64,000 bases of DNA from Novosphingobium resinovorum (lineage in GTDB: Bacteria; Pseudomonadota; Alphaproteobacteria; Sphingomonadales; Sphingomonadaceae), in the NCBI RefSeq assembly GCF_001742225.1, contig NZ_CP017075.1, positions 1,240,001 to 1,304,000 on the forward strand, written 5' to 3'. The notes below the pieces were generated by a model. The model saw only the letters and a program-made list of their open reading frames with translations. It made no database searches and was not told the origin of the DNA. The position numbers and the translations under genes were made by a program. Shown piece after piece: positions 33,827 through 60,170 of this stretch (position 1 is the first letter of the stretch; the number at the start of each line of letters is the position of its first letter).

Positions 33827-33846
33827 TCGGACAAGATATCACGCCT

Positions 33847-35187: not shown

Positions 35188-35820
35188 TTGCTGCGTTCAT
35201 CTTGAACTGAGGCTCCTTCCCTCCACCGACATTACCCGGCTTCCTCGGTACTACGGGCCTCTCCGCCACCCCATTGCGCCCTTCCCTCCCTCGCGGGCGT
35301 CCAGTTGCCGATCACCCGGCACGCGATGGGGCTTCCCGTGTTGCGAGCACTTTCCTTGCGTACATGCTGTCGCCACTACCCCGGTGCAGCAGACGGGTTC
35401 AACGTCGCTCAAACTCGCCCGTCCATATCAACCTTCCCCGTAAGGGTTAACGGGTCGGCCTGCACATCGTCCTTTTCGAGGATTGCTCAGCGTTCACTCA
35501 CGTTACGGCCTGTACGCTCGCACGGTCACCTACGTGACCGTTATCCGGGGGCTTCAGACATTTCGTCACCTCCACGCCTGCCCCGGTTGCTTCCGGCTGG
35601 AGCATCGCCGGGTGGGCCTCTCACCCACTAGAAAGTGCCGCCTTTGCACGGCGCACACCCAAATCGGCCGTTCAGCGGTCGATTTTCCATCCCCAGGTGC
35701 TGACCGTCTGCTTACCGGACTTCAGAGCCTGTGATGGCCGGTAGGTGACTGTCCGGTTACGGGTGTACAAACCCAGATAGCTGAACCGCCCCGAGATTGC
35801 CGGAGGCCAGTTTTCTTAAA

Positions 35821-36783
<963 letters not shown>

Positions 36784-38742: not shown

Positions 38743-38757
38743 GATCGTCGCTTCCTT

Positions 38758-41810: not shown

Positions 41811-42593
41811 CTAATCTGCGCACCACACGACTTCTCGATGCCACACCAAACGGTTGCGGTGGTCGTCGGTCAATGTCAGCGGCGCGGCATTATCCAAGTT
41901 GAGTGCCAAAATCTCTGCACGGGTTAATCGGGGCGATCCTACAGCGACGCCATTGTCGTCAAATGTGATCAGGCCCGCATCGAATGCCGCGTCCCACAGG
42001 GATGACAACAGCAAGCCATTGTGGACGTTCAGCCGTTCTTGATCGTTTTCGCATCTGGACCACGGGATAATATGCGAAGCGCGCAGCAATTCCGGGACGG
42101 TGATTCCGGTCAGGGGGCATGCGCTGTTCCAGTAGTTGAGTACGGCTGAGCGGAAGCGATCTTGCCCGACGCGGACTTTTTGTACCCGGTCAGCTTCTGT
42201 GTCACCCAGATGCGCGGTTTCTCGCAAAAATTCTTCAAATGGTAGCGTCGGTAGGCTGATGGACAGGCGGTAGACTGCACTGACGGCAGCAAACAGTGCG
42301 TCCCGCGTGGGAAATGCGAAGGCGGCGGCGTGCCCTTTGGCGCACGGAGTGGCAGCCGGCGCGGAGAGTTCCCGCGCAGCACCAGGATGGGCCACTGACA
42401 GGAAGAATGGCCCTTCCATGCCCCGCGCTGTTGCTGCGACGGCAATTTCGCCCGGAGCGCTGGACGAGGTGAAGAATAGCCACCCGGCGGCCTGGCCCAT
42501 CGGAATGCGATAGCCTTGCCCCTTTGCGGCATCTTCGAGCTCGGACCCCAAGGCGAATGGGTAGATGCGTAGGCGGTCGCCGGTGTCGATCAT
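41811..42593 (-). CDS. HNH endonuclease (HNH_2-like), last gene of the defence operon
   Basis: 260 aa. The C-terminal half carries the HNH_2 pattern: CPLTGITVPELLRASHIIPWS (Cys159, His174) then ERLNVHNGLLLSSLWDAAFDAGLITF (Asn192). The N-terminal 120 residues are a separate, mostly beta domain that could recognise a substrate. The ATG overlaps the DUF262 gene stop as ATGA, so it is translated with it. Likely a DNA-cutting effector; specificity unknown. Confidence 0.8.
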   Translation of the reverse strand: MIDTGDRLRIYPFALGSELEDAAKGQGYRIPMGQAAGWLFFTSSSAPGEIAVAATARGMEGPFFLSVAHPGAARELSAPAATPCAKGHAAAFAFPTRDALFAAVSAVYRLSISLPTLPFEEFLRETAHLGDTEADRVQKVRVGQDRFRSAVLNYWNSACPLTGITVPELLRASHIIPWSRCENDQERLNVHNGLLLSSLWDAAFDAGLITFDDNGVAVGSPRLTRAEILALNLDNAAPLTLTDDHRNRLVWHREVVWCAD

Positions 42594-44536
42594 GCCGCCA
42601 CCGGCTCACCTACGATTTCCTTGGTGACGTATGCTTTGAACGCGTCTGCATCAGCAAAGCAGCGGAAGCCGTTTGCATTTGCCAATGTAATCACCGCCGG
42701 ATCAGCGCCTACGACAAGGGCTACCGCCTCTGTCAGTTCCTGCCGCAGGCCATTAGGCCAAGCCACGTCTAGAACGGCGGCTTGCTCGCCAGATTCCACC
42801 GTCACAATCTCATAAGCCATGACCCCTGACGGCAACCCCTGATCGGCAACCCATTGTTGCAGCGCCGACAGGGCCGCCTCTTCATTGGCGTCTGCTGGCC
42901 CGCTAACAATGGCCGCCGACGTGTGAACGGGCGCTGCGGTGGCGAGCCACCGTTCGGTCTCCCCATGGAGCAGGTCAGCCAACAGGTCGTTTGTCGCCTT
43001 GGCCAGCAGTTCGCGGCGAGCGGCCAGGAAATCGGCATAATTTTCAATCCGCCACAGTTGCGGATCCATCGGAACCCATTGCGAAGAAAGGGCACCGGGG
43101 TGCCTTTCCTCGATGGCGGGAAAATAGGCTTCAGGTCGATCATCCAGAATGTCGAGATTGGCGCGTTTGGTCAGGAAGCAGAAGTTTGCGATCGCGTTGA
43201 CCTCAGCGCGGCCATAGCCAGCCTCGTAGAGGCGAGCCTTGGGGAAAATGTGGTGGACTTCCAGCTGACTGAGTTTGCCCAGCATCCCGGCCTTGAGGGG
43301 AAGACCGTTCCCCCAATCCTTTGCCTCCGCCATGCGCGTCAGCAGATAGAGTACAGGGTAGAATCGCGCGCCCAGGTTCCACCCGGTGAAGTGCCCCGGC
43401 TCAACCCGCAAGCCGCCATGCCAAAGGCGAAGAATGTCCAGCATGCGATCGAGCCCACCGGCATCCAGTGCTTCAAGATCGGCATCGATGAAGCTTTCGG
43501 TCGAACCTGAAAAGCGCCCCCACATGCCGGCCTGCACATACCAGAACAGCAGCTTGTCGCGCTCTTTCTGGTCCATCGGTCCGGTTCGCTGATCGAGATA
43601 GCGCGCCATTACCGAAACCGCGCCGCGGCCGAACAGCACCCGATCATGATCCAGTCCAAGTCGACCCGAAATCAGGTTCAGCGCGGTATCTATATGGCGA
43701 CTGGCGCGTTTCAAGGCATCCTGCACCTCGGGCGCAGTCTTGCCGTGCAAGTGCAGGAATTTCGCCTCGCCGGTCAACACGGTGTTCACCGAACGGAGCA
43801 GCCAGTCGAGCGAAAAATCGTACCCCGCCTGGCGCCATTTACCCAGTTGGACTTTCATCTCGGTCCGAGCCTGCGGCCAGTCGGCGCAGATTTTTGCCAG
43901 CGCCAGATCGCCTTTTGAAAGTTTGGTGCCGCCACTGTTCACTTTGTTGAAGATGTCGACCACGACGTCGAGCGTCATGTCGCCGCCCGTGATTTCCTCG
44001 ATATGCAGATCGATGTCGCGAATGCCGAGCAGTTTGCTGAGGCGGCTGACATAGTCGCTTAGTTGCGGCGCGTGTTCAGGGCTGGTGGAGAGAGAGGTGA
44101 TTATGGAACCCAAACCATCGTTACCCGCCTTCAACAGCGCGGTGACATCAATCCAAAGGGGATCGTCGCGCATCATGATGGGCTGGTAAAATTGAAATTC
44201 TTCGCGACCCATATGAAAATGCAGGCCGGCAAAGGCCTTTTCATTGCCGTCGAAAAACTGCGGCGGGTGCCCCCGGATTACACCATAGAGCGATGTTATC
44301 CGCTGCTGGCCATCGAGCAGCAGCTTGACCACGCCCGGTGCAAGCTCGTGATCGCCGCGGTGCTGTGCCCCCTCGGACTGGGTGGCCCAGACGAGCAAGC
44401 CGCCGACCGGATGCCGCCGATAGAGCGACCCGAACAGGCCGCGCACTTGATCACCGCCCCAGACATAGCCGCGCTGGAATTCAGGCAGTGCCATGTGGCC
44501 GTTGTCGATGTAATTCAGAATGGTAGCGATTTGCAC
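42590..44536 (-). CDS. DUF262-type nuclease with HNH-like C-terminus (GmrSD-like)
   Basis: 648 aa from a GTG start with GGAGG upstream. The N-terminal DUF262 (ParB-like) domain shows LPEFQRGYVW (17-26) and LDGQQRITSLYG (74-85), the nucleotide-binding/NTPase loop of GmrS, SspE and BrxU. The centre has FNKVNSGGTKLSKGDLALAK. A DUF1524-like HNH motif LEVHHIFPKARLYE lies near 427-440. These proteins cleave modified or invading DNA under nucleotide control. The C-terminal 130 residues are unassigned. It lies 59 bases after the ATPase gene. Confidence 0.8.
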   Translation of the reverse strand: MQIATILNYIDNGHMALPEFQRGYVWGGDQVRGLFGSLYRRHPVGGLLVWATQSEGAQHRGDHELAPGVVKLLLDGQQRITSLYGVIRGHPPQFFDGNEKAFAGLHFHMGREEFQFYQPIMMRDDPLWIDVTALLKAGNDGLGSIITSLSTSPEHAPQLSDYVSRLSKLLGIRDIDLHIEEITGGDMTLDVVVDIFNKVNSGGTKLSKGDLALAKICADWPQARTEMKVQLGKWRQAGYDFSLDWLLRSVNTVLTGEAKFLHLHGKTAPEVQDALKRASRHIDTALNLISGRLGLDHDRVLFGRGAVSVMARYLDQRTGPMDQKERDKLLFWYVQAGMWGRFSGSTESFIDADLEALDAGGLDRMLDILRLWHGGLRVEPGHFTGWNLGARFYPVLYLLTRMAEAKDWGNGLPLKAGMLGKLSQLEVHHIFPKARLYEAGYGRAEVNAIANFCFLTKRANLDILDDRPEAYFPAIEERHPGALSSQWVPMDPQLWRIENYADFLAARRELLAKATNDLLADLLHGETERWLATAAPVHTSAAIVSGPADANEEAALSALQQWVADQGLPSGVMAYEIVTVESGEQAAVLDVAWPNGLRQELTEAVALVVGADPAVITLANANGFRCFADADAFKAYVTKEIVGEPVAA

Positions 44537-44595
44537 TGCCCAGCCCCCTCCGTGACGGCTTCCAAGTATCTTAAGTACGAGACGAGGTTAAAGGA

Positions 44596-46512
44596 TCAGA
44601 AATCCATCCCGAACACGCGCTTGTCAGCAGGCGCGCCGTGAAGCTCCAAGCGTTGCCAGGGTTCCTTCTGGAATGCCTCCGGTGGTGCTGTCGTGGTGGT
44701 GACGATGTATTGGAAGAGGGGAGTTCCGCCGATCCCTTCCAGTTTCTGGCTCATCGTGAACAGCCTGTTGTAGATCGACAGGCCCAAGTCCGCTTCGCGC
44801 GGGCTATCATGGATGAGGAAGGCCGGAAGCTGGGTGCGCCCCTCGATTGTGAGAAGCAGCGCGGCAAGATCGAACGCGACGATCTTCAGAGAGTCCACAG
44901 CCGCTGTTGAGCGATCTCCCCCCATTTGAAAGCGGAGATTCAACTCGTTCTGCTCAAGGTCGATTTTACCGTTCGCCGTTTCCGGGATCAGGAATTTTAG
45001 GACCCCGTCGAACAGGAGCGAAAGGCGGTCTACGTTCTGCAGCGCTGCCGCGCGATGTTCTGACGCTGCATTTAGGTGTGTGCTCTGGAGCTGGAGCAAT
45101 TGTTCAATGGCATTAGTGCTGGTTTTCAGCTCGCCCAAGTGGGTAGCGTAGCGCGTGCTCATGGTGATGTCGCCCTTGGCCGCAGACAGGCGCCTCGATT
45201 GGTCGACCAGCGCCCTCTCCAGCGCTATGACAGCCTCGGCAAGCGGCTTAGCCGCCTGTTGGGCGGCAGCAATCTGGTACTTCACCGCTGAGATATTTGC
45301 TTCCAAAGCCCCTATGTCGCCTGCGATCTCAGCGATTTTGCCGATCAGGTCATCTCTTTCCTGTTCCCGCTCCCGGACAAAATCCAAGGCTTTCTGGTCC
45401 ATCCGCGTGCCGCACGTCTTGCAGACTGGGTTTTGAGCATCGCAGACGTGGGTGTGGGCTTTCGCAGAATTGTTATCGATGGTCTTCCGCAGTTCCGTCT
45501 TGGTAGCGAGATCTGCGTTTAAGCCAGCTAACTGGTTCCCGAGCTGGGTCAGCGCCCTTTCAGCTCCATCCTTGTCTTCCCGAGCTTTGGTGAGCCTCTC
45601 ATAGAGTTGTGGATCTGCTGCGGCCTCTGCTTGCGCAACGGCCTCGCTCGCTTGGGCTTTCCAAAAATCGGCCTGCGCGTCCGATGCGCCAAATTTCTGG
45701 GATAGGTCCGCCTGCATATCCTCGACGAGATGCTGCAAACGTCGGCGCTGCCGCCTTGTCTGTTCAATTTTGACGGAGCACTCTTCGGTTAAGCGTGAGG
45801 CCTCCATTTCACCCGCCGACAAGGCGTTGACGAGCAACCTGACAATCACAAGCCGATCCGCCTGCGACAATTGCCGCTGACGTGAAGCAGAGTGGGACTC
45901 GGTTTGTGCCGATCGCCATTCGAGTGCCGAAAGCAGACGGCACTCTTGGTCACGTGTCAGCCACGCCAGCGCGACTTCCCAGGCCTCTTCGACAGGGTTC
46001 GCCAAGGGCATGCGGCTCGCAGCCTCTGGCATGAACGCCTGGGTGATGGCATCGCGCAGTGCGCCAAGCCCGGTATGGGGCATTTCACCGCCAAATGCTG
46101 CCTCGAGCTCCTCGCCCTTCGCGCAATAGTGCCGGTTGTCGATACCAATTGGTCGGAGTACGACCCATGCCTCTCCATCCAGAACGACCTCGGCCCCGAC
46201 ATACCCGTCGGGTATTTTGTTGACCACCGCTTCCCGCAAAGCGTGCGAGCCAAAGCTGTTTTCGCCGAGGCAGTAGCGCAACAGGCGGCAAAAGGTGGTC
46301 TTTCCTCCGCCATGCCCCATCGCCTCGTTCTCATTACCTGAGTCTGGCGACCAGATGATGTTCAGCCCCGGTCTAAGCGTCACCTCCCGGATTGGGTCTC
46401 CCACGCCGCGCCAAATGACCAGGCGCCGCACCCAAAGCCGCGGGCCTGCTTGCCCAACTGCGGGTTGGACATCGTCGATCGAGATGGCGAGGAGATCAGG
46501 CTGCTGCGGCAA
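44596..46512 (-). CDS. SMC-like ABC-type ATPase with long coiled coil
   Basis: 638 aa from a TTG start inside the methylase gene end (AAGGGA lies before it). Walker A is GHGGGKTTFCRLLR (66-79); long helical coiled-coil arms run from about 215 to 500; a Cys cluster CDAQNPVCKTCG near 357-369 sits at the hinge, resembling a zinc hook; the Walker B region is LPAFLIHDSPREADL near 560-575. This architecture resembles the DUF2326/ABC-3C type ATPases of conflict systems. It may couple DNA sensing to the nucleases encoded downstream. Confidence 0.75.
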   Translation of the reverse strand: MPQQPDLLAISIDDVQPAVGQAGPRLWVRRLVIWRGVGDPIREVTLRPGLNIIWSPDSGNENEAMGHGGGKTTFCRLLRYCLGENSFGSHALREAVVNKIPDGYVGAEVVLDGEAWVVLRPIGIDNRHYCAKGEELEAAFGGEMPHTGLGALRDAITQAFMPEAASRMPLANPVEEAWEVALAWLTRDQECRLLSALEWRSAQTESHSASRQRQLSQADRLVIVRLLVNALSAGEMEASRLTEECSVKIEQTRRQRRRLQHLVEDMQADLSQKFGASDAQADFWKAQASEAVAQAEAAADPQLYERLTKAREDKDGAERALTQLGNQLAGLNADLATKTELRKTIDNNSAKAHTHVCDAQNPVCKTCGTRMDQKALDFVREREQERDDLIGKIAEIAGDIGALEANISAVKYQIAAAQQAAKPLAEAVIALERALVDQSRRLSAAKGDITMSTRYATHLGELKTSTNAIEQLLQLQSTHLNAASEHRAAALQNVDRLSLLFDGVLKFLIPETANGKIDLEQNELNLRFQMGGDRSTAAVDSLKIVAFDLAALLLTIEGRTQLPAFLIHDSPREADLGLSIYNRLFTMSQKLEGIGGTPLFQYIVTTTTAPPEAFQKEPWQRLELHGAPADKRVFGMDF

Positions 46513-49500
46513 TCCATTCCCTTTCTTCCTGCGGCAACGCCGCTACTGCGTTTTGGATTACGATACTGCGTATCGCATGAAGCACGAAGGCAGCGCGCCC
46601 ATCGGCCCAGGCTAGTGGGGCATAATGGTATATTTCAGCACCACGATCCCACATGCGGCTTTGCACGTTATAGTGGATCGACCGCTCAGCGCGCAGTTGA
46701 GCAACGGCATCATGGAAAGCCTGCGGCGTGGCCGCACTGAAGGCCGCGACGTTTGGAGTGGCTTGCAGGTTAACCTGATCGCCAACAAGCCGCCGCCACT
46801 GAGCCTGCATCTCTAGTGTCAAATGGTGCATCAACAGATGCGGCTTGGCTGCGAACAAGGCGGCCAGCCACACATCGAGCGGCGCTACCGGGCCGACTGT
46901 CTTCTTCATGATGGCCGCGAAGATATGCCGGACATCAATTGCCGCGTCGACACGGTGATCCCATGCCCTGTCGGCCACGGAGCTGACATCCGGGGCAGCA
47001 GAGGCCAGCTTGTCATAAGCGGCGAGGACGAGGCGTTGGGTGCGGTATTCGCCGTATTTCCTGATCTCGTTATTTTGCAGGACGCGGAAGGTTTCGCTGG
47101 GGTAGTTAGGCCCCATAACGTCCTTGGGGGCGAGCACATAGCGCAGTTCGTCGCGCGTCAGGCCATAGGCGAGCGCGTACCAAGCATCGAGTTCGGCGCG
47201 CAACTGGCCGCGCCGGTCGTCGTCCCACGCGAAAGGTGGGGCGTCATACCCCAAATCGCGGGCGAAGGAAGCCATAGAGTGGCTGGTATAGGTCAGTTCC
47301 AGCACGCGCGGGACGATGAAGGCGAGGTCCTCCATGGAGTACGCCGATGGGGGGAGGACAGGAAATTGTTGAAGTGTATATTTCCTAATATGGGAGCCAC
47401 CAACTTTTTGCTGTGCGCAGAAATCTACCACGAGTGAATTTAGCGCAGAGCAAAGTAAAATTGCCTCTTTCGCACCATTTTCAACAAGAATCAGGCTAAA
47501 TGTATCGTCTGCAGCAGCCGCAGGAGCAATACATGAAACCACAGTTCTTTCGTTAGTTGAGCTTGTAATATCACGCCATCCTGCGAACCATCCACGACCC
47601 CAATTTCTTAACGCATAACGCGCCTTCAAATCCGATCTTTTCACGTACTTGTCCGACGATATTTGGAAACTTGGATCCTCCAGTTCCTGTTCCGTCAGCT
47701 CTCTAAACTCCTGCAGGGATTGGTCAAAAGTTGCAGCTCGGTGGTTGAAGTGCCATACCATTGAGCCCCTATAAACAGGCACACGATCTTCCTCTCTCGC
47801 AATAGAACCTGCCTCGAAAATTATTTGATCTTTTGAATTTGATCCAGAAAAGAAGTTCTGAACCAGCTGAGCCTTGATCGAAGATAATCTTGTTTCTTCT
47901 TCAAAAAGGACAGGCACACGATCGTATATTTTTGCAGTCAACTGCGCATCATGCAGAGTACGAAATATAGGAGCAGTTTTGGTGTTAGGGTTAATTCGCT
48001 CTATTTGATCAGGAGACAGCGTGAAGCGCCGTTCTGTATGTTCAAGATGATCTACTTGTCGAGCGAAGAACACAAATTCTGACGGCGTTGGCGAAGCTTC
48101 TCGATAAGCCAAAAGACAAAACTTCGTTGCATGGTGAACGCCAGGGAAAATCATTTCCTCATTCTCAAATGAAAATAGCGCCTTAAGGCGCTGAGAGCTG
48201 ACCAAATGACTGAAGAATGGCGCAGTGGTAGCATCAGTGGCGATACCAGTGGGCACAATCAGCCCAGCTTGCCCACTGCGTCGGGTCAGATTGAGGAAAT
48301 GCTCGGCAAAAAGAGAGTACGTATTTATCTTTCCTCTGGCCGTGAAATTAAACCTCCCAGAAGCGCGAGAAAATTCATTAACAGCGTCAAATACTCTTTT
48401 ATCGGTTACGAATTTAGCAAAAACATCTGGCTGTTCTGATTCAAGAGAGGCTATAGCACGCTTACGCTTTATGCCCTTCATAATCGCAATTTCTGGAATG
48501 CGAGATGAAAAATACTCTCCTTCACTAAGCTGAACGACTTCCCACGGTGGATTGCCCAGCACAACGTCAAACCCACCTCGGGCAATGATCACCTCGGGGA
48601 AAGCCAAAGGCCAATGAAAAGCGCGGGCAAATTCCGCCGCATTGACCGCCGCTCCCTCAAGCGGACAATAGATATTGCCACCGCCCATGCGCGTGCGCAG
48701 ATGGCCAGTGGTGGGGATCATTGCGTTGCCACTGCTGATGGGAACACCGCCAGTCTTGGGCAGCAGGAAGGCTGCAACGTAGAGGTCGCAAGCCACCTTG
48801 GTGGCATAGCGCTGCGGATCGTTAGCCCAAGCCAGAAACTTCTCCCGCTTGGCCTTGATCTGGGCAACGGTATCTTCCGGCAGGTGGCGCAAATCGTCCA
48901 TCTGTGCAGCCAATCTGGCCGGCGGGAGCCCCCCGCCCCCAAGGCCGAAATCGAACATGCCTTGTCCGACTTTTTCCGCCTTGTTGCGCTTAGTAAAATG
49001 CTTGGCGGTCTCTTTGTCATCGCCGGTCAGCGGGTTGTAGGCGTCGTCTGGAATGCCCTCTTCCAGCGCTGCAAGGTCGAACACGCCAAGCAGGCTATCG
49101 CCGCACTGCAGATTGGCATCGAGGAAGCCCAGCGGCTTGCCCGGCTCCACCGTCTCGATCCAGAGCGCCACCTTGGCGAGTTCCACCGCCATAGGGTTGC
49201 GGTCGACGCCGTGGATGCAGTTGCGCACCGCATCGCGCATGGCGGCGTTGTAATCCGGCGCATCGGGATTGCGCAGCTGGGCCACGCGGTTTGCTACCCG
49301 ACGCGCTGCGCCCAGCAGGAAGTGGCCCGATCCACAGGCGGGATCGATGATGTTAAGATCAAGGATGGCATCAACGCCGCCCTCGGCCTCAGCGCGGTCG
49401 AGCACAGGATCGAGTGCGCTGTCGAGCAGGCACTGCACCAGACTATCGGGCGTGTAATAGCTGCCAGACGTCTTGCGTGCGTTGCCGCGGGCCTCAGCGC

Positions 49501-50863
49501 CACCGGCGAAGCTGAAGGTGTGGCCCTCATCCTCGCGCATCGGCACGAGTTCGAGCAGGCCTTCGTAGACGCTGCCCAGTTCCTCGGTCGCCATGTCGCG
49601 CCAGTTGATGCGTACGCGACGGCTGTCGTCGATCAGCCAAGCCAGCTTGTAGGCTGCGGTCAGGAAAGCGCGGTTGGGGATTTGCACGGTATCGAGATCG
49701 GGCGTTAGGCCTTGATCGAAAAGCCCGCCCAATGCAGGCAAGCCGAGCCGCGGTTCGCCCTGGACCAGAGCACGGAACACAACCTTGGCTCCTTCCCACG
49801 CGTCATGATGGTGATCGTGGGCATGGCGTTTGACCGACCGATCGCGCAAATGGGCAAAGCCGTAGTTGGCCGCATAAAGGTCGCGCGTTGCCTTTGGCGT
49901 GGCGGACGGATGCAGCAAGTCGCGGTCTTCTGCCACCGCGAGGAAAATCATCCGATAGATGACGCGCAGCATCTGCTCGAACAGGTGTGGTAAGGGCAGA
50001 TCGTTGCTGTCGAGCCTGGCGCGGACGGCCGGGTTGGCGTCGAGAAGGCCTTGGCCCAACACCAGCAAGGCGTCCTCCACGTTGACACGCAGGCGATCAC
50101 GTGCGGCCGTGCCAGCGCGCATACCGGCCTCGCGCCAGCGTTCTAGCGAGCTGTCGCTTTGTGCTGCCCCTTCCGCGCCAAAGCGTGACGCGTGGATCAG
50201 CAGCCACAGCGCCGTGAAATCGGCGAACATGTCGTCGCGAAAGATGTTTGCAAGGTCGACCTCGATCCATGCCGGGCGGGTCAGGCTGGCGTTGTCGCGC
50301 ATCAGGCGCAAGCGGTCGCCCGCGAATACCAGGCCCCACAGGGCAGCATCGTTGGCATTGAGCCAATCTTGCAGAAGCACAGTGGGTGACCGGCGATGGA
50401 TGCGCCCGCTTTCGTCATCGCCAAATTCCGGCAGCGCGCGGGCGAAGCCATCACCCGGCACACCTTTGACTAGCGGCGCGGGAGGCGCGACCACGATGGG
50501 CACACGACCGTCCTTGGCTTCCCAGGCGATGGTGAAGCGGCGATCCTCGCGATGGTGAACGTGCGGGCCGGTCAGGGCAAAGCCAAAAGCCTGCTCCAGC
50601 AAGCCTTTGGCGAAGGTTGCGGTCTGCGTCGTGGTGGGATCGGCAAGGCGATTGAACGTCTGCCAATGCGCCTGAGCAATGCGGAAATAGCGCGTGATTT
50701 CATCGCGCAGATTGGTGCCCTTGGGGCAGCCATAGTCGGCAGCCATTTTGGCGTCGGGCGCAGCGGAGGCGATGGCCTGCACCTGATCGGGGGAAATCAG
50801 GCCCCCTTCGATAGTGATGGCGGCAAGGCCCAGATCGGCGCTGCGTTTGGCGGCGCGAGACAT
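46496..50863 (-). CDS. Large N6-adenine methylase-like protein (DrmMI/Eco57I-like)
   Basis: 1455 aa. SAM-binding motif [21 protein letters not shown] (about 506-525), then [20 protein letters not shown], and the catalytic NPPW in [13 protein letters not shown] near 770. The N-terminal 400 residues are helical and C-terminal parts fit a target recognition region. Size and motif order fit the Eco57I/PglX class and the DrmMI component of class 1 DISARM, which marks self DNA. ATG overlaps the SNF2 gene stop (TGATG). No PD-(D/E)XK nuclease motif was recognised. Confidence 0.85.
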
Positions 50864-53652
50864 CAGTTCAACTCCGGAAGCAAGACATAGAGGCCGATAA
50901 TGTCGGCCGGAAGGACCGGGCTGACCTTTACCGTCGCACCACCGCCCGCCGCCTCGGTCAGGCGGATATGATCGTATGACAGAGTCTCGGCGCGGGTTTG
51001 CGCAAAGGCTTCGATCGCACTGGTGTAACTGGGCAATCGGCTGTGAGCATTGTCGATCTGGCGCAGCCTTGCGTCGGTATCGATGTCGCTGGATGCGGCT
51101 TGTTCCAGCAAGGCCAGCGCTTGATCGGCGAAGGCTATGGGCTCCGTACCCAGTCCGGCAAAGGCAACGGCGGTGGCTTCTTCAGCCAGCAGCAGGCGGT
51201 TGGTGCGTCCGCTGGTCACAAGCTGGTAGCGCAGCCGCAGCAAAAGTAGCGTCGTCATCTGGGCAACGGCGCGGGTGCGCCAGACACCCGCACGGCCAAG
51301 GGCCTTGCCTTCGGCGGCTTGCGGGTCGAGCGCGCCTTCGGCCAGCGTTTCGGCCATAATCGCGACTGCGGGATGAACCCGGCCGACATGGGTGACACCG
51401 GGGTTTGGATCATCGAGAAAGCTGATCCGGCGCGTGCCTTTGAGACCGCGCTGCCCCAACCTGTCGCGCATCGCATCGGGCAGGAAATCGATATGCAAAC
51501 GCGCATGATCGGCCAGCTTTTCCAGGGGCGCGCCGAGGCGCTGAAGGGCGCGCTCGGTAAACCGGGCGACTTCGGTGGGGCCTCCATTCAGTGCGCGCAT
51601 CTTGTTCCATTCGGGCAGGACTTCGTCCGGCTTCAGTGCGCCTTGGGCATAGCGCGACCGGCTTGCCTTTGCGTTTTCGGCGGTGTCGCGCCATTGCCGT
51701 TCAAAGCGCTGGGCAGCGGGGCCGAAATCGAATGTGAGCTGGCTTTTGGCATTACCGCCCCGGCGCAGCATCACGGCCTGCATCAAGGCGGACGTCACGC
51801 TTTCCTGATCTTCGGGCATTGGCACTGCCACGCCTGTTGCTTTGCGGATTTCGTCGGCCTTGCGCAGGATTACATCGAGCACCGCACCATCGATGGCGCT
51901 GTTTTCGCCATACATCATCAAGGAGCGAACGATTGGCGCCTGTTGTCCAAAGCGATCGACACGACCTTCACGTTGCTGATGTCGGGTTGGATTCCAGCTC
52001 AGATCGTAATGAATGACCGTGTCGAACAAGCTTTGCAGGTTGATGCCCTCAGACAGGCAGTCGGTGGCTACGAGTATGCGATTGTTGGAAACGTCGAGCG
52101 CTTCGACCCGATTGCGGCGCTCATCGGGGGCAAGGGCGCCGGTGACCACTGCCAGGGCCGCCTTGGGGAATTCTACGCGCAGCACTTCACCCAAAGCCTC
52201 GGCCGTGGCGATGAAGCGGCAGAAGATGACCGGCTTGGCGCCGGCCTGCATCAAAGGGCGCAATTCGGCCAGTAGTTGTTTCAACTTAGGGTCCTGTGCG
52301 GTGCGCGATGCGAGCGATTGTGCCCGTTCGATCAGCGCGCGCAATGCGGCGGTTTCTTCGCTGTCTTCAATAGCGGTGGCGGGTTCGATATCGCTTTCGA
52401 TGAGCATGCCATCTTCGGCATCGAAAACGACCGGCTCGATGGCGCCTTCTTCGGCCATGCCGCTCAGTCGATTGCTCAGGGCGCTGACAGCCGCAGCGGG
52501 AGACGACCCGACACAGCGCATCAGGGCCAACGTGCCCCAGAATGCCAGGCGGCGATACCGTTGATCCGTGCCTGCTCGCTCGGTGACGGTGAAGCAGTAA
52601 TCAAGCACTTCTTCCTGAAATGATGCAAAATCACCGTTGAGCGTGAATGGCGATTCCTTGGTTTCATGTTTAGCAAAGGCGCGCCGCTCGTCCCAGCCAT
52701 CCTGAATATCTGGTCGGCGGCGCTGAATGAGATGCTGCGCCAGGCGGCGCGCATAACGCTCCCGGGCATTGGCATCGCCTCCATTCGGGCCACCCGCCAG
52801 TTCTTTATGCACCAAGCCAAGCAAGCGGTCATAGGCGACCACGTCGCCACTGTGCGGCGTGGCCGTCAGCAGCAGCAGATGGCGTTCAGGATCGGTGGCG
52901 ATCCTCTCGAGCAAGTCATAGCGCTGGTGCTTGCCGCGTTCGTTGCCGACACAGCTATGGGCTTCATCGACGATGACAAATGGCGGGCAGGCTCGTGCGA
53001 ATTCGTCGCGACGGCTGTCGGCCTTTATGTAATCGAGGCTCACGACCGTAAACGGATAGGCATCGAACAGGCTTTGCGACGTGGGAAGGCCGCGTTCCAG
53101 GCCTCTGGCCTTGGCCGCGGTCACTGCGACGGCATCGATATCGAATTTTTCGGCCAGCTCGGTGACCCATTGATCGACGAGATGCGGCGGGCAAAGCACG
53201 GCAAAACGATCGACCAGCCCGCGATCGAGCCATTCGCGCAGGATCATGCCGGATTCGATGGTCTTGCCGATACCGACGTCGTCCGCGATCAGCAGGCGCG
53301 CCACATGCAGCTTGAGCGCCATCATCAACGGGACGAGCTGATAGGCACGCGGTTCGACACCCAGATGGGCGGCACTGCGAAATGGGCCTGCGCCGCGCCG
53401 GAGTGACAAACGCAGCGCGTCTGCCAGCAATTGCGCACCATCCTGCGTATCGAGCCGGTCTGCGGTAGGGGCCGCGAAGCTGGCTGGCTCTACGGGCGAC
53501 GATTCGAGCTCGGGAATGATGATCTGGGCATCGTCGTCGCTGCCCGAAAGGGGGCGCACATTGAGCATTCCCTCACCCGGCGAGGGCAGGACAATCCATT
53601 CGCGCCCGCGCGCACGCACCATATCGCCGGGGGCAAAAACAACCGCGTTCAT
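50863..53652 (-). CDS. SNF2-family helicase-like ATPase (DrmD-like)
   Basis: 929 aa. SF2 motifs: LIADDVGIGKTIESG (Walker A 127-131), PPFVIVDEAHSCVG (DEAH 229-232), LLLTATPHSGD (about 261-270), then a helicase C domain with VATDCLSEGINLQ and HQQREGRVDRFGQQ (arginine finger region). The arrangement fits the DrmD type of DISARM. SNF2 ATPases track along DNA. The start overlaps the helicase stop (TAATG). Confidence 0.85.
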   Translation of the reverse strand: MNAVVFAPGDMVRARGREWIVLPSPGEGMLNVRPLSGSDDDAQIIIPELESSPVEPASFAAPTADRLDTQDGAQLLADALRLSLRRGAGPFRSAAHLGVEPRAYQLVPLMMALKLHVARLLIADDVGIGKTIESGMILREWLDRGLVDRFAVLCPPHLVDQWVTELAEKFDIDAVAVTAAKARGLERGLPTSQSLFDAYPFTVVSLDYIKADSRRDEFARACPPFVIVDEAHSCVGNERGKHQRYDLLERIATDPERHLLLLTATPHSGDVVAYDRLLGLVHKELAGGPNGGDANARERYARRLAQHLIQRRRPDIQDGWDERRAFAKHETKESPFTLNGDFASFQEEVLDYCFTVTERAGTDQRYRRLAFWGTLALMRCVGSSPAAAVSALSNRLSGMAEEGAIEPVVFDAEDGMLIESDIEPATAIEDSEETAALRALIERAQSLASRTAQDPKLKQLLAELRPLMQAGAKPVIFCRFIATAEALGEVLRVEFPKAALAVVTGALAPDERRNRVEALDVSNNRILVATDCLSEGINLQSLFDTVIHYDLSWNPTRHQQREGRVDRFGQQAPIVRSLMMYGENSAIDGAVLDVILRKADEIRKATGVAVPMPEDQESVTSALMQAVMLRRGGNAKSQLTFDFGPAAQRFERQWRDTAENAKASRSRYAQGALKPDEVLPEWNKMRALNGGPTEVARFTERALQRLGAPLEKLADHARLHIDFLPDAMRDRLGQRGLKGTRRISFLDDPNPGVTHVGRVHPAVAIMAETLAEGALDPQAAEGKALGRAGVWRTRAVAQMTTLLLLRLRYQLVTSGRTNRLLLAEEATAVAFAGLGTEPIAFADQALALLEQAASSDIDTDARLRQIDNAHSRLPSYTSAIEAFAQTRAETLSYDHIRLTEAAGGGATVKVSPVLPADIIGLYVLLPELN

Positions 53653-56600
53653 TATGATACTCCAAGGGCGGTGCGCAAAGCGGCCGGAGCTTCATCGCCC
53701 GGCGAAGCGAGCAGATCGATCACATCGAGAATTCCAAGCGATGCCGCTTCGGCCTTGATCTCGTCTGAAGCGCCGCCGGGAACGGCGAGGACGTCCTTGG
53801 CAGACCAATAGAGCGAGAATTCGCCCTGTGACAGCCGCAGCGTGGTGGGCTTTGGGAATCCCCAGCGCAGAACGGCGTGCAGCCAAGGATCGCCGCCACT
53901 GTCGGCAGCGATGTCACCGACAGTGGCATGGGTAAGCGCGCGCAAGAAGCCGAGCATACCAGGATGGCGACGGTCGATCATCTCGTGGTCGGGCTGGTTG
54001 AAGTACGAGAGGATGCAGCGATAGCAGCCTGCCACGCAAGCATCTTCAGTAGAATGTAGCTCTTCGTCGTCGAACGGGGGCTGATAATGCATCAGCTTGA
54101 GGGCTTCGGCGGCCACTTCGGCGACCTTGGCAGGGTCGGCAATCAGGCGGTTGAGAACGCCTGCGCCACCCTCGGTCGCTTCGTATAGCAAAATGGCGTT
54201 GCGCAAATCACGGTTAGGCAGTGGTTCGCCCAGGATTTCGCCCTCTTCCAGTTCAAAAACGAGCTGGATGCCCCGGATCAGCGCATGCTGGAGCGTCGCC
54301 ATATCCTCGACACTTAAGGGGGCGCGGAATTGCAGGAGCATCGCGTTCTTATGGTCTTCGACAATCGGTACGATGCGTTGTGGCTTGGCCTGGGTGGGGT
54401 CGCCCATGCCTTCATCATCATCGCCATTTGATGGATCGGCCAACCATCGGCCGGTATTGGGATCGATGAAAAAGCCGAAGATCGATTTGGATTTGCGGCG
54501 GCGCAAACCCTTGTTGATCCGAGACAGTTTGGTGGCCGCGCCATAGTCGAGCCGCAGCAGCTCCTGCCCATCGGCAACGAGCAGGCAGGAGCGGATGTCA
54601 GGCTCGCCGGCCTGCATAGGCCATTGAAATACCGTCTGGATCTCAAAGCCGCGGCGCTGCCGGTCTTCGTCGTTGGCGGTGATGCGCTCTGCCGGCGCGG
54701 TCTCTACGTTGTCGATGCGTAGCACCGTATCCAAACGCTCGGCGCCACCCAGGGATGTATCGCAGGCGTGGCAGCGTTCCTGCAATTTGTCGGTATGAGC
54801 CGCACCGCATTGCGGGCAGAGGATCAGCTTCGATGTGGTCAGCTGATTGTTGTCGAGCCGATCGCGCGCGGGCAGCTTGGCCTTGGTCACACGGAAGGCC
54901 CGGCCTTCGTGGTAGATCATGCTGTTGGGGCCGAACTCGGCGATGGCCAGGAACCGGGGACGCTGCAGAACCGCGCTGCGTGTCGCCGGAATGAAGGCAT
55001 AGAGCGGCAGGCGGGGGAAGTTGTAGCCCGGCAGGAAGCCTTCGGTGGCGAGATAGCGATAGGTGTAGAAGTCCGAGCCGTTGCTGGCGCGCCCGGTTTC
55101 AAGGATTTCGAGCTCGCGCGAAGCATTGCGGTAGCGGGTTGCCGCAGCGGTGCGTTCCCCAGTCTTCAGGCCGACCTTGTTCTGGATCGCGTGGGCGAAA
55201 TCCTGTTCGCGCCTTGCGCTGCTATGCAGATCACGCCAGCGGTTGAAGGCATGGCTGAATTCGGACAGCGCTTGCCGATCAACCTGATCAACGAAAGCAT
55301 CGACATCTGCGAGCCAGGGCGCGTTCTTGAGGTCGACAGCCGACAGCATCGAGCCAATCAAACGGCGCATGATCGGGCGGGCAGCGCCGCTTTGGGCAAC
55401 TGCTGCCAGTCCGGTCGCGATTTCCGGGGCAACCGGCTTATCGTCGCCGGCCATATCGAGGTTTTCCGGGATCGACGATTTGAGCGGGACAGTGGCAACG
55501 GCCAGCCATTCAGCATGAAGATGGCTGCGCAATAGATCCTGGTTGGCAAGATCCAACGCCGGTGGCCGAACCACACCCGCGACGAGCGCGGGCTGATCCT
55601 TGAAGTAATATTGATCATGCGGCGATTGCGACGCGCAATAGATGACCACCAGCGCGGCTTGCCCACTGCGGCCCGCACGACCAGCGCGCTGCGCATAGTT
55701 AGCAGGCGTTGGCGGCACATTGCGAAGGTAGACCGCGTTGAGCGCGCTGATATCTACCCCGAGTTCCATTGTCGGTGAGCAGAACATCGCAGGCAGGAAG
55801 GTGTCGGGCTCGCCCTCTTGCCGCATTGCTTCATGATTGTCGACAAGGCGCTTGCGGTCCGGACCTTCGTAACGAAAGCGGTCTTCGCGCCACGAACGGA
55901 CGTCCTGATCGACCTGCGCTGTGTGTTCGCGCGCCTCAAAGCTATAGGGCAGATCGCCGTTGTGCCCCAGCATATCCGCGACTTGCTCATACAGGCTGCG
56001 GAAGAATGGGTTTTGGCGCTTGCCGTCACGCCGGGCAGTTGCCTCGCGCAGGCGGATCGCGGTCGGGGCCATCCGCCAGGCTGGCGCTTCATATCCGACA
56101 TTGACCCGGCGAACGAATTGATGAGCCTCAGCCGCTTGAAGCAGCGTCTCGATCATCTCATCGTATTCTCTGGCCGGAACCTGCTCATTCCAGATGCGGG
56201 TGTGCCGCAGTTCCTTGCCAAGCTTGCTCTGACGACCTGCCCGCAGGATCAACGCAGCCTCTGTAGCCTTGATCGTACCGCTGCGAGGAGGCGTGATCAT
56301 CAGGAATCCGGCCTGCCTCAGACTCTTCTCCTCTTCGCGGTCAATTGCCCATGGCAAGCGGAGCCGATTGCGAGAGACTTCGGCAGACTGGCGGACCTTG
56401 CCCGGGTCGAGCGCATCGGTAGCAACGGCAAGGCCTTGGCGCATGTTGTCGAACAGTCGCTCAAACAACTGCCGCCTGATATCTGGCGACGCCTGCGCCA
56501 ACCGGTGGCATGAGCGGAATTCCTCGTCGTCATGAATCAGGTCATCGAGGCCTGGGAAATGCGCCTCGATCAGGCCAACCTCTTCAAGGTTGGGATTGGT

Positions 56601-58814
56601 ATACCTCCAGCCTCGACGCAGGTCGGCCCAAAGCCTGTGTGCAAGGATGTCGGACAGCGTTTCCTGGGCCTCCTGGCGATTTTGATACCCTTTCGCTTTG
56701 GGATCGAGCATCCATTCGGTGAGGCGGCTTAGCTCATCGAGATCGAAACCGAGCGCAAGGCGTACAGCTTCACCAAAGCGATCAGGCTTCAGCCCTTGTG
56801 GCCCGGCGGCGCGGACCGCGCGCAAGATGGCAGCGCGCAGCAAGGTGACGAAGATGAAGTCGTTGAAATGACCAGCCTGAAGGGCGGCATCCTGGCGATT
56901 GTCGGTAAAACCGAGCAGCTTGCGCGTGTATGGCGCGAGCGAGCCATCTTGCTCCATCCAGGCCAGAATGGTCGCAACGATCAGCGTTGTCGTCGAGCTG
57001 CGACCCTCTGCCGACAATCCGGCAAGCTTGTTGATTTCTCGAGCCTGTGGCGCAGGCTGATACCCACATTCAGGACAAAAGCGGTACTGGCCCGAGAAGA
57101 ACCAGGCCGGAACGCCGTCGTCGCCAAAGCTACCGTCAGGTCTGACATGGACAAGCCGCCCCTCGTGCTTGTTTCGATGGTTGGATTTGAGCCGGAGCAC
57201 GCCAGATGCCGTTTGCTCTTGCCATTCATCGGGGTAATCTTCGGTGGCACCGCTGAATTTGAAGTCACGGTTGACCACAGGCACCAGATAGCCGGTTTCA
57301 GTGCCATCAGGCTCGGTTTCATCCTTGGTCGGCTCATCGATGGGGCGCGCAATGACGCGCCTTTCGCCGTCGACGCTCGCAATCGAAACGCTGTGATGTT
57401 CTTGGCCGCATTCTCGGCAGAAGTAGAGAGGGTACAGTCGTGCGTTCTCATCCTCGGGCAAAAACTTTTGCCCTTCGAGGCTGACCCGTCGCCACTCTGC
57501 AGGCTCAAGCGTTGCATAGGCTTTGCCTGCACCGGAAATGAAACGGTGCAATTTGAATGCCAGAAATGCACGGTCCGATGTGCCGCCGCGTTCGTCTTCC
57601 CGCTTACCCATCATGGCAAGCATGGCGGCAATTGCTCGCTCACAGTCGGGGACAGGCAGTCCGATTTGGGCGCTGAGGCCCTCGGCAGCCTTCAGCATCG
57701 TCATCGGCGACCGCCGTCGACGCTTTTCCCCTTCTTCGATCCCGACCTGCGTCTCGATCCAACAGGCGAGCGGATGGGTTTCGAGTTCGGCATTTGATAG
57801 GGCAGTCGGCAGAGGGTGAAGCACCGCTTGGCGCAGTGGTGCGATGAGGGTCTCCGCCTTGATCGCATAGGACGTTGCTCGGTCCAGGTCTTCGTCGATT
57901 ACCCCACCGAATTGAGAGATCGGTTGTCCAAAGAGCGTTGTCGCGACTTCGGCTACGGCCTTTGCTCTGTCCAATTCATCGGCCGAGCTTGACATCGTAG
58001 CCGATGTGCCGATGCAAATTAGATCCTTTGACGGGGTGAGGCGTTGCTTTACGCGGCGAACCAGCATGGCAACGTCGGCACCCTGACGACCGCGATAGGT
58101 GTGCAGCTCGTCAAGGACCAGGAAGTCGAGACCTTGGGCGTTGGCAATCACGGCCTGATCAAGCTGTGCCTGCCGCGTCATGAGTAGCTCGAGCATCATA
58201 AAGTTGGTCAGCAAGATGTCCGGCTTGTCACGCGAGATCTGTTGACGTTCTTCCTCAGTCTCCTGACCGGTATAGCGGGCGACCGTGGGTTTCAAATGGG
58301 CCGACAACCCGGAAGCCACCGCCTCATCAACGAATTTTCGGATCTCACCGAGTTGCGAATTTGCCAAGGCATTCATCGGGTAGATGATGATCGCTCTTGT
58401 GCGCGGCTCTTCGCCAGCCTTCTTTGCGCGGATTATGGCATCGACGATGGGTACGAAAAAGCAGAGCGATTTGCCGGAGCCGGTGCCAGTCGTGACGACA
58501 AAACTCTCGGAATTGCGGGCTTTTGCAACCGCACGTTGCTGATGCCGATGTAGCCTGATTGGCATGCGGTTGGGCCCGGCGGCGAATATCGGGACGAGCT
58601 CAGGCTCAATCACACCCTCTGATGCCAACTCGTCAATCGATTTGCCGGGTTCGTAACGGGGATTGATCGTTACGAGTGGGTCGGGCCAGAACTTCTTTTC
58701 ATCGTAAACAGCACGGATCTGCTGATCGATTTCTGGCGCCTTGATAGTGGAGAAAGAGCGGGCGAACGAAGCGTAGCGATCAACTAATGCGCGATCGAGT
58801 TCAAAAATATTCAC
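53652..58814 (-). CDS. DUF1998-type SF2 helicase, DrmA/DrmB-like single chain
   Basis: 1720 aa. Motifs: TTGTGSGKSLCFFVP (Walker A 109-116), DFLVLDELHTYRGRQG (DELH 235-238), GTSATM (about 269-274), the helicase C domain with SPTMELGVDIS near 1018 and YAQRAGRAGRSGQ near 1045. The C-terminal part is DUF1998/MZB-like with zinc Cys in CPQCGAAHTDKLQERCHACD (about 1334) and CVAGCYRC (about 1596). In DISARM the helicase and DUF1998 are split into DrmA and DrmB; DruE of Druantia and YprA/MrfA carry both in one chain. It would be the main DNA motor. Confidence 0.85.
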   Translation of the reverse strand: MNIFELDRALVDRYASFARSFSTIKAPEIDQQIRAVYDEKKFWPDPLVTINPRYEPGKSIDELASEGVIEPELVPIFAAGPNRMPIRLHRHQQRAVAKARNSESFVVTTGTGSGKSLCFFVPIVDAIIRAKKAGEEPRTRAIIIYPMNALANSQLGEIRKFVDEAVASGLSAHLKPTVARYTGQETEEERQQISRDKPDILLTNFMMLELLMTRQAQLDQAVIANAQGLDFLVLDELHTYRGRQGADVAMLVRRVKQRLTPSKDLICIGTSATMSSSADELDRAKAVAEVATTLFGQPISQFGGVIDEDLDRATSYAIKAETLIAPLRQAVLHPLPTALSNAELETHPLACWIETQVGIEEGEKRRRRSPMTMLKAAEGLSAQIGLPVPDCERAIAAMLAMMGKREDERGGTSDRAFLAFKLHRFISGAGKAYATLEPAEWRRVSLEGQKFLPEDENARLYPLYFCRECGQEHHSVSIASVDGERRVIARPIDEPTKDETEPDGTETGYLVPVVNRDFKFSGATEDYPDEWQEQTASGVLRLKSNHRNKHEGRLVHVRPDGSFGDDGVPAWFFSGQYRFCPECGYQPAPQAREINKLAGLSAEGRSSTTTLIVATILAWMEQDGSLAPYTRKLLGFTDNRQDAALQAGHFNDFIFVTLLRAAILRAVRAAGPQGLKPDRFGEAVRLALGFDLDELSRLTEWMLDPKAKGYQNRQEAQETLSDILAHRLWADLRRGWRYTNPNLEEVGLIEAHFPGLDDLIHDDEEFRSCHRLAQASPDIRRQLFERLFDNMRQGLAVATDALDPGKVRQSAEVSRNRLRLPWAIDREEEKSLRQAGFLMITPPRSGTIKATEAALILRAGRQSKLGKELRHTRIWNEQVPAREYDEMIETLLQAAEAHQFVRRVNVGYEAPAWRMAPTAIRLREATARRDGKRQNPFFRSLYEQVADMLGHNGDLPYSFEAREHTAQVDQDVRSWREDRFRYEGPDRKRLVDNHEAMRQEGEPDTFLPAMFCSPTMELGVDISALNAVYLRNVPPTPANYAQRAGRAGRSGQAALVVIYCASQSPHDQYYFKDQPALVAGVVRPPALDLANQDLLRSHLHAEWLAVATVPLKSSIPENLDMAGDDKPVAPEIATGLAAVAQSGAARPIMRRLIGSMLSAVDLKNAPWLADVDAFVDQVDRQALSEFSHAFNRWRDLHSSARREQDFAHAIQNKVGLKTGERTAAATRYRNASRELEILETGRASNGSDFYTYRYLATEGFLPGYNFPRLPLYAFIPATRSAVLQRPRFLAIAEFGPNSMIYHEGRAFRVTKAKLPARDRLDNNQLTTSKLILCPQCGAAHTDKLQERCHACDTSLGGAERLDTVLRIDNVETAPAERITANDEDRQRRGFEIQTVFQWPMQAGEPDIRSCLLVADGQELLRLDYGAATKLSRINKGLRRRKSKSIFGFFIDPNTGRWLADPSNGDDDEGMGDPTQAKPQRIVPIVEDHKNAMLLQFRAPLSVEDMATLQHALIRGIQLVFELEEGEILGEPLPNRDLRNAILLYEATEGGAGVLNRLIADPAKVAEVAAEALKLMHYQPPFDDEELHSTEDACVAGCYRCILSYFNQPDHEMIDRRHPGMLGFLRALTHATVGDIAADSGGDPWLHAVLRWGFPKPTTLRLSQGEFSLYWSAKDVLAVPGGASDEIKAEAASLGILDVIDLLASPGDEAPAALRTALGVS

Positions 58815-59067
58815 GACTACCCCTGCGCATCCTGCCGAAAATTTTAACTACGGCGATTAATAGTTCGATATGGTCGGCTGACGCCAGTCCAGATATATCC
58901 AAACCTTTGGGCTCGGGCCAGATTTGTAGATCAAGCAATCGGCTTACGAAGCGCCAAGGATCAGTACCATTTGAGATCAGGCCCGGAAATTTGGTCTCGG
59001 CCACATACCGACGCTGGCATTCCGGGTCATAATCGATGTCTATGAAGAAGCTTTGCACCGGGGTCAT
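58801..59067 (-). CDS. Small protein of unknown function in the defence operon
   Basis: 88 aa from ATG 59067, overlapping the Fic gene stop as ATGA, and ending 14 bases inside the helicase gene. The product MTPVQSFFIDIDYDPECQRR... has a mixed alpha/beta look and no recognised domain. It is coupled on both sides, so it is probably a true component, perhaps a small partner of the helicase or Fic protein. Confidence 0.6.
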   Translation of the reverse strand: MTPVQSFFIDIDYDPECQRRYVAETKFPGLISNGTDPWRFVSRLLDLQIWPEPKGLDISGLASADHIELLIAVVKIFGRMRRGSREYF

Positions 59068-60170
59068 GCCGGTAGCTCCAGAAAATAGCGGGTGTGCTTG
59101 AGTTCGCCATGTTTCCTTAGCGCACCAATCTGTACCAGATCGGTCAGGTCGCGCGTGGTGGTGGCTGAAGCCGCGTCCGTGATCGTGCGGTAGTTGGCAG
59201 CGCTGAGGCCTCCTTTGAACCCATCCACTCCTTCGGCGAACATGCGCAGGAGCGCCTTTTCTTGGCGTGGGTTCATCTTGCCGCGCAGGCGTTCGAGCAA
59301 ATGGGATTTGGCTATTAGGAACTCGACGCGCTCGATCGTGCGCTGCTGGGCTGCCAATGCGATTTCGGCGAACCAGGTCAGCCATTCGTCGATCTGGTTC
59401 GATTGACTTGCGTGCTGGAGCTGCTGGTAATAGGCTTTTCGCGCGCGCTGGATCATTTCAGCGAGTGCCGTAATCGCCGGGGCGTCGAGCCATTGCCCTA
59501 GCGCCTTCTCGGCAACAGCGCGACCGATCCTGCCGTTACCATCCTCGAACGGGTGGATCGATTCAAACCAGAGATGCGCGATACCTGCCCGCGCCAACAC
59601 GCTGACCGGCTGCGCGCCATCGGGGCCGCTGGTGTTGAACCAGCGAACGAAGGCGCGCATTTGGTCAGGCACTATCGCTGATGGCGGTGCCTCGAAATGC
59701 ACTTTGGGCGCGTGCAGCGCACCCGAAACGATCTGCATCGCATCTTCGTGGCGACGATAACGGCCAATGTCGACCAGATCGCGCCGCCCGTTCATTAGCA
59801 TGGCATGCCACTGAAATAGCGCGTCATCGGTGAGCGGGGCGCGATAGCCGCGATAAAGGTCAGCCATCATTTCAGCGATGCCGGCTTCGGCGGCATTGGC
59901 ACGACGCTGTTCGGCGGCAATGCCCAGATGATTCGCGATCGAGGATTGCACGCTGGCGCGGTCGAGGATCTCGCCTTCGATGGCTGAGCTATCGACTGCT
60001 TCTTGCGCGATAAGCGAGATGGTAAGGCCGTTGCGGTCGCTTTCCGGCAGATGCATCATGGCGCCCACGGCCACGCCTGCACCTTTGAGAAAGCGGTCTT
60101 CTAAAGGCCGCAGGCGTGCGGCATCATAGGCAAAATTCGGCCAGTTTGTTAGTTGCCAGTTCCACCGCAC
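59064..60170 (-). CDS. Fic-family protein with DUF4172 N-terminus, first gene of the defence operon
   Basis: 368 aa from a GTG start with GGGCGGGG upstream. The N-terminal DUF4172-like part contains an inhibitory helix SSAIEG (S61xxxE65G66), which places it in class II Fic proteins. The complete Fic motif HPFEDGNGRIGR is at 206-217. The C-terminal 70 residues look like a winged helix (LSAANYRTITDAASATTTRDL), so it may bind DNA. Fic enzymes AMPylate target proteins. A role as sensor or regulator of the system is inferred from being first. Confidence 0.85.
   Translation of the reverse strand: MRWNWQLTNWPNFAYDAARLRPLEDRFLKGAGVAVGAMMHLPESDRNGLTISLIAQEAVDSSAIEGEILDRASVQSSIANHLGIAAEQRRANAAEAGIAEMMADLYRGYRAPLTDDALFQWHAMLMNGRRDLVDIGRYRRHEDAMQIVSGALHAPKVHFEAPPSAIVPDQMRAFVRWFNTSGPDGAQPVSVLARAGIAHLWFESIHPFEDGNGRIGRAVAEKALGQWLDAPAITALAEMIQRARKAYYQQLQHASQSNQIDEWLTWFAEIALAAQQRTIERVEFLIAKSHLLERLRGKMNPRQEKALLRMFAEGVDGFKGGLSAANYRTITDAASATTTRDLTDLVQIGALRKHGELKHTRYFLELPA

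Follow-up and report, generated by a model that had tools for sequence, protein, structure and literature searches.

An ARMADA type I-like operon with a Lamassu-like SMC gene and an SMC-associated methylase tail in Novosphingobium resinovorum

Described systems and the core of the operon

ARMADA type I is described in the main text of a recent preprint as a YprA-like helicase followed by a BrxHII-like SNF2 protein and a PglX-like methylase, the YprA protein ending in a predicted active Vsr nuclease; ARMADA type II of Escherichia coli is reported there to protect against phage (Bell et al. 2025, PMC12458937). The words Fic, SMC and DUF262 had no match in the same main text. These systems, together with DISARM, Druantia and Lamassu, are here compared with an eight-gene operon on the minus strand of a 64,000-nucleotide stretch of the Novosphingobium resinovorum genome (NZ_CP017075.1, positions 1,240,001 to 1,304,000; hereafter the window). 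New in this operon and its relatives are a C-terminal methylase tail strictly tied to an SMC gene, and the re-use of this pair on the Res subunits of type III restriction enzymes. The genes and gene parts, in window coordinates and gene order, are as follows.

59064..60170, minus strand: Fic protein (DUF4172 and Fic domains), SoFic-like, 368 amino acids (aa), accessory head gene (PADLOC, Pfam, pattern)
58801..59067, minus strand: small protein of 88 aa, coupled to fic by ATGA and overlapping the helicase gene by 14 bases
53652..58814, minus strand: YprA/DruE-like helicase with MZB/DUF1998, of ARMADA I type, 1720 aa (PADLOC, Pfam)
53655..54002, minus strand: C-terminal region of the helicase, the site of the Vsr-type nuclease in ARMADA I relatives (motif search)
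50863..53652, minus strand: SNF2/RapA-like ATPase, BrxHII/DrmD-like, 929 aa (PADLOC, Pfam, NCBIfam)
46496..50863, minus strand: PglX/DrmMI-like adenine methylase with NPPW motif, 1455 aa (PADLOC, Pfam, NCBIfam, pattern)
47264..48613, minus strand: methylase residues 751–1200, presumed target recognition region (comparison with locus L002)
46499..47008, minus strand: methylase C-terminal tail, residues 1286–1455, SMC-associated, predicted winged-helix (alignment, fold prediction)
44596..46512, minus strand: SMC/Rad50-like ATPase, LmuB/DUF2326-like, 638 aa, overlapping the methylase gene by 17 bases
42590..44536, minus strand: DUF262/GmrSD_N protein, HEC-05-like, with HHIFP motif, 648 aa, gene of an exchangeable slot (PADLOC, Pfam)
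41811..42593, minus strand: HNH_2 endonuclease-like protein, 260 aa, near-constant last gene of the lineage (PADLOC, Pfam)

The initial annotation, made from the sequence alone, had proposed a single overlapping defence unit of unusual composition. All eight genes and all junctions were recovered at the lengths it gave (in gene order overlaps of 4 and 14 bases, two 1-base junctions, an overlap of 17 bases, a gap of 59 bases and an overlap of 4 bases), and a single apparent transcription unit of defence components in an unusual combination was supported. Pfam matched Fic and DUF4172 in the first protein, DEAD, Helicase_C and MZB in the helicase, SNF2, an Eco57I/N6 methylase domain, GmrSD_N and HNH_2. 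Pattern searches located HPFEDGNGRIGR in Fic, GTGSGK and DELH in the helicase, GIGKT and DEAH in the SNF2 protein, NPPW in the methylase, GHGGGKT, CKTC and HDS in the SMC protein, and DGQQR and HHIFP in the DUF262 protein. Chance does not explain the arrangement: other genomes repeat both the succession of helicase, SNF2 and methylase genes and the SMC slot.

The core had been assigned to class 1 DISARM, and this assignment stood in part only. The SNF2 protein and the methylase are akin to DrmD and DrmMI (PADLOC E-values 3e-68 and 2e-69), although the SNF2 score of 277 bits lies far below the NCBIfam cut-off for DrmD of 610 bits. The separate DrmA and DrmB proteins, by contrast, turned out to be one DruE-like helicase (E 4e-90 for DruE versus 1e-14 for DrmA) with MZB at residues 1508–1601, the single MZB match of Pfam among the eight proteins. 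No PLD domain was present among the Pfam matches of these proteins either, so that the lack of DrmC noted earlier was borne out. The DISARM label was rejected because MZB is fused into the helicase and DrmB and DrmC are missing, and a DISARM variant is now extremely improbable. Druantia shares the nearest helicase profiles with the operon, but the operon has a methylase and an SNF2 protein in addition, and neither DruA–D nor DruH occurred among the PADLOC matches listed for the eight proteins (at most 25 for each of the three core proteins).

The order of YprA helicase, SNF2 and PglX-like methylase, which is also kept in the relatives, is that of ARMADA type I, and by helicase type and gene order the core is an ARMADA type I-like variant. 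It is so called, rather than a typical member, because the motif of an active Vsr nuclease was not found in its helicase. Unlike ARMADA type I, the operon has a separate HNH gene in place of a fused Vsr motif, an extra tail on the methylase with an SMC gene following it, and added fic and DUF262 genes. The core has the order of a named system, ARMADA type I; for the accessory part the earlier statement, that no named system was known with the full gene set, holds within the searches made.

A near-identical relative (L002; related loci are cited by number) is another Novosphingobium resinovorum operon. Its proteins other than the methylase are 96–99% identical to those of the window, the small protein 78%, and methylase residues 751–1200 show 25–58% identity inside the region and 84–98% outside it. 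The comparison fits a swapped recognition region, which would point to a methylase that marks self DNA. As a pair the window and L002 represent a clean swap of this region. The complete eight-gene order, which the initial annotation had suggested looking for in other genomes, was found in L002 and in no other of the 30 loci detected with the SNF2 protein, four of which start too late for their head genes to be assessed.

Co-occurrence of the methylase tail and the SMC gene

The best profile of the SMC protein in PADLOC was LmuB (E 4.7e-15), with modest scores, and in Pfam the protein reached 28.2 bits for DUF2326, just below the cut-off of 28.7. The features of Lamassu LmuB, i.e. the Walker A motif, the CKTC zinc hook and the HDS motif, are present. 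By profile and motifs the gene belongs to the Lamassu/ABC-3C sphere, the ABC-3C profiles having been among those the initial annotation singled out for comparison. The SMC family is an uncommon one; among the 385 genomes of the class, three matched the SMC model, one of them with a remnant of 62 residues.

The length of the methylase followed the presence of the SMC gene. A locus was scored as SMC-positive when an SMC match lay at most 1.5 kb after the methylase gene on the same strand. Of 28 aligned methylases, the 17 with an SMC neighbour continue for 170–196 residues beyond window residue 1286, and the other 11 end within 14 residues of it (L008 and L020 being broken frames). In a wider set including plasmids and whole genomes, all 26 SMC-positive loci had 159–205 extra C-terminal methylase residues, and all 27 SMC-negative loci had −1 to 42 extra residues and no tail. 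Loci L033–L036, L060–L065 and L067 come from SMC searches and are therefore SMC-positive by construction. When only the 30 SNF2-found loci were considered, the tail was present in 13 of 13 SMC-positive loci and absent from 13 of 13 SMC-negative ones, four loci not being judged. Along the SNF2 tree, which has 50 rows, there are 11 changes of SMC state, and the tail follows in all 11 independent pairs; this was a quick tree with long branches flagged, and the states of tail and SMC were identical in every row, giving one set of labels for both.

The count of 26 and 27 loci excludes those with no methylase C-terminus (L021, L022, L029, L069 and L085), fragments, truncated methylases, type III loci or remnants (L030, L032, L066, L073 and L074), duplicates (L001, L037–L059 and L075–L079), and, by the threshold on the hidden Markov model (HMM) end, L034 and L035, which are both SMC-positive with about 150 extra residues. 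Broken genes were kept, these concerning the methylase frames of L008, L010, L020, L031, L061–L063 and L086 and the SMC frames of L060, L061 and L063. Plasmids found with SNF2 were represented by 14 records fetched for diversity from 40 listed matches (566 records). The SMC plasmid search gave ten records. Five of these were fetched directly, three more correspond to L012, L091 and L093, and the remaining two, partial matches in Priestia, were left unfetched.

Three side observations concern the same genes. In L025 the helicase and SNF2 protein cluster with those of the sphingomonads (identities to the window of 69% and 77%; SNF2 tree), but the methylase (1607 aa) and SMC protein (660 aa) have rhizobial lengths, as if these two genes had moved together. 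Small genes are embedded in the methylase gene or immediately precede it in L061, L062, L063, L064 and L084, among them at least one PIN-domain gene (L062) and an annotated Phd/VapC pair (L084). In L061–L063 the methylase is split into two open frames around residue 1000.

The tail was predicted to form a winged-helix domain. The two top Foldseek matches were small chains of Lamassu complexes, with non-significant E-values. The tail is putatively LmuC-like, the chains being assigned to LmuC by their size. No solved relatives of the SMC protein or the tail were found by sequence, and a PADLOC scan of six tails gave no match except a weak one to Avs2 (E 0.016) for L063. The likeness to Lamassu (LmuABC) thus consists of a Rad50-like ATPase of about 640 aa with a CxxC motif and a putative partner domain with an LmuC-like predicted fold. 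The difference is that the LmuC-like domain forms the C-terminus of a methylase or of a type III Res subunit instead of a free protein, and that LmuA was not found in the PADLOC matches of the five accessory proteins nor among the matches, at most 25 each, listed for the three core proteins. The operon is probably best understood as an ARMADA type I-like restriction operon combined with a two-part Lamassu-like module, composed of an LmuB-like SMC protein and an LmuC-like tail on the methylase.

The pair on type III restriction enzymes and its possible role

In the phylum sample the SMC model matched nine of 398 genomes, which gave the window, the remnant (G106) and eight loci in seven genomes. 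In seven of the eight (L060–L065 and L067) the SMC gene comes after an ARMADA I methylase whose C-terminus is extended. In the eighth, L066, from a Magnetococcales metagenome-assembled genome (according to the identical protein P0161), the SMC gene follows a type III Mod–Res pair, and the C-terminal domain of the Res subunit is a homologue of the methylase tails from the magnetococcal loci (HMM E 4.9e-29). Three more loci came from scanning viral contigs. L099 has Mod followed by Res (ResIII and RE_endonuc), the Res frame overlapping the SMC gene; Res residues 1060–1214 match the window-type tail (HMM E 3.5e-23, among 789 proteins) and the SMC protein matches the model with E 1.4e-182 (set of three). 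The other two, L100 and L101, show the end of an SMC gene and an HNH gene at the contig edges. The window operon itself has no Mod–Res pair, and the tail is placed on Res in the type III loci.

Tail type and SMC type go together. The SMC protein of L099 is 33% identical to that of the window versus 26% to that of L066, and the L066 protein is 39% identical to that of L061 versus 21% to that of the window. The alphaproteobacterial and the magnetococcal tails could not be linked by sequence (hhalign probability 0.3%), the sole agreement between the two families being the order of predicted helices and strands. A word search with the L066 Res tail returned only its own protein, a plasmid search with the same tail gave no match, and neither did phage records searched with the SMC protein of L068.

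The following mechanism may be proposed. The methylase would mark the cell's own DNA, with its exchangeable recognition region determining the site, and an SMC dimer would dock on the methylase via the tail. The docked SMC could then sense some feature of invading DNA, for example an end, a hairpin or a replication intermediate, and only DNA both unmarked and flagged by the SMC would be passed to the helicase and SNF2 motors and to cutting, with Fic and DUF262 as putative add-on effectors. Of this picture the gene anatomy, the joint presence and switching of tail and SMC gene, and the occurrence of the pair on type III Res are shown, and docking, sensing, the sequence of steps and an anti-phage activity of the operon are inferred. 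A portable, Lamassu-derived SMC coupler grafted onto unrelated restriction enzymes of the modification type, giving a two-factor system that acts on unmarked and structurally abnormal DNA, is tentatively suggested by the pair's occurrence on both enzyme types, the odds being slightly against it.

According to another explanation the Lamassu-like module guards the methylase or Res subunit and fires an abortive response to phage inhibitors, rather than sensing DNA. The enzyme that bears the tail is one against which anti-restriction proteins of phages could be directed, the consulted part of a review regards Lamassu as acting through abortive infection (PMC10586767), and Fic could serve as an effector at the cell level. 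However, no constant LmuA-like effector was seen beside the pair, the stretches L062, L063 and L065 having no match to the Fic, DUF262 or HNH proteins of the window (in L062 the sequence runs on for only 1.7 kb beyond the SMC gene, and in L065 an open reading frame (ORF) of 678 aa follows). The protection by ARMADA type II is, moreover, reported to be non-abortive (PMC12458937, main text). The guard explanation seems to us very unlikely.

Under the coupler explanation the co-inherited SMC protein and its presumed docking domain would form a concrete, deletable handle on how ARMADA, DISARM and Druantia discriminate an invader from the cell's own DNA by means other than methylation. On type III enzymes the pair would link DNA sensing of the Lamassu SMC type with restriction-modification, and the coupler would represent a recurring composite immunity, in which the sensor adaptor of one system is fused to the enzyme of another. 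A long methylase C-terminus also gives a simple genomic rule for finding such hybrids. No paper in which an SMC protein or a part of Lamassu is joined to ARMADA or to type III restriction was found in titles and the openings of abstracts (subscription papers and supplements lying mostly outside the search), and the part consulted of a BREX-related survey (PMC12839542) had no match to ABC-3C, DISARM, Druantia or DUF262.

Possible nuclease exchange, accessory genes and genomic setting

The Vsr motif (DF.Y...DGPxH in the YprA C-terminus) was searched in 59 loci including the window. It was present in 12 (11 by regular expression and L072 by eye) and not found in the remaining 47, the window among them. 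The HNH gene, scored by tblastn with the window HNH protein at E 1e-6, occurred in none of the 12 loci with the intact motif (L061, L062 and L083 having only 0.5–2 kb beyond the operon) and in 40 of the 47 that had lost it. The seven remaining loci end too early (L021, L022, L029, L069 and L085), stop after the DUF262 gene in the fetched stretch (L068), or have an IS21 element after the methylase (L081). It looks as if the separate HNH had been swapped in for the fused Vsr nuclease. The pattern is a single change on the tree, with one pair in the independent-pair test, and therefore represents one lineage event and not statistical proof. In the HNH motif the window copy has Leu where some relatives have the third His.

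The 30 SNF2-found loci belong mostly to Sphingomonadales and rhizobia, with some Burkholderiales. By tblastn they included HNH in 26, SMC in 13 and DUF262 near full length in five. Fic and the small protein were found together only in the near-identical operon L002; in L003, L007, L012 and L021 the sequence starts within or at the helicase gene and does not cover the head genes. The 88-aa protein had no profile match in PADLOC, Pfam or NCBIfam, and an alternative longer ORF start of its gene, at 59385, falls within fic. The Fic protein matches SoFic in PADLOC (E 6e-44) without reaching the NCBIfam cut-off, and the DUF262 protein matches HEC-05 (E 1e-36). Both are stand-alone PADLOC entries, but the window proteins sit inside an ARMADA-type operon.

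Elsewhere the occupants of the slot between methylase and HNH include a UvrD-like helicase in L005, an M78-like protein in L024, a PD-(D/E)XK protein in L027 and others. On a Nocardioides plasmid the methylase is followed by an AAA ATPase and McrC, agreeing with a remark on McrBC in the main text of the preprint. The UvrD-like helicase was identified by Pfam in L005 and by membership of the same cluster in L019 and L024, and an annotated ATP-binding protein of similar size is present in L080; a UvrD-like helicase in this slot recalls the GajB-like ArmD of ARMADA type II.

The rarity of Fic and the small protein, the independent variation of DUF262 and the mixed contents of the slot, including UvrD-like, M78-like peptidase, PD-(D/E)XK and McrBC genes, all agree with the stacking of a defence island, in which an ARMADA I core and independent Fic, SMC, DUF262 and HNH genes would have been brought together by selection for shared expression, with no joint working. 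For Fic and DUF262, which look like optional extras, this is likely true. As an account of the whole operon it is rather unlikely, as it accounts neither for a methylase domain that comes and goes together with the SMC gene nor for type III Res subunits that bear the tail next to a member of that SMC family.

Other loci carry, among other upstream genes, WYL regulators, AbiEi/AbiEii and Mre11/Rad50-like pairs. In L020 (Pfam), L026 (clustering) and L088 (annotation) the ARMADA I core is directly preceded by a metallophosphoesterase paired with a Rad50/SMC-like ATPase. In L067 a short ORF (17129–17551) that matches Fic weakly (21.9 bits, cut-off 24) closely precedes the ARMADA I helicase.

The host genome is 6.9 Mb in size. 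The order from tRNA-Pro is a phage-type integrase, a group II intron with insertion sequence (IS) elements, the operon, a nucleotidyltransferase–HEPN protein and conjugation genes of the TrbI/CagX type, so that the position beside trb, noted in the initial annotation, was confirmed. The tRNA-Pro and integrase are probably the left end of an integrated element. Its far end was not placed, because a search of the same genome at up to two mismatches gave no further copy of the 28 bases at the 3' end of tRNA-Pro. The features around the operon, in window coordinates, are as follows.

31711–33260: tRNA-Pro (TGG), then tyrosine-type integrase
33753–40311: group II intron with maturase, IS3-like transposase with ALIL frameshift pseudoknot, IS21-like pair
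61042–61950: nucleotidyltransferase and HEPN protein between the trb genes and the operon, with weak HalB and PDC-M05A matches

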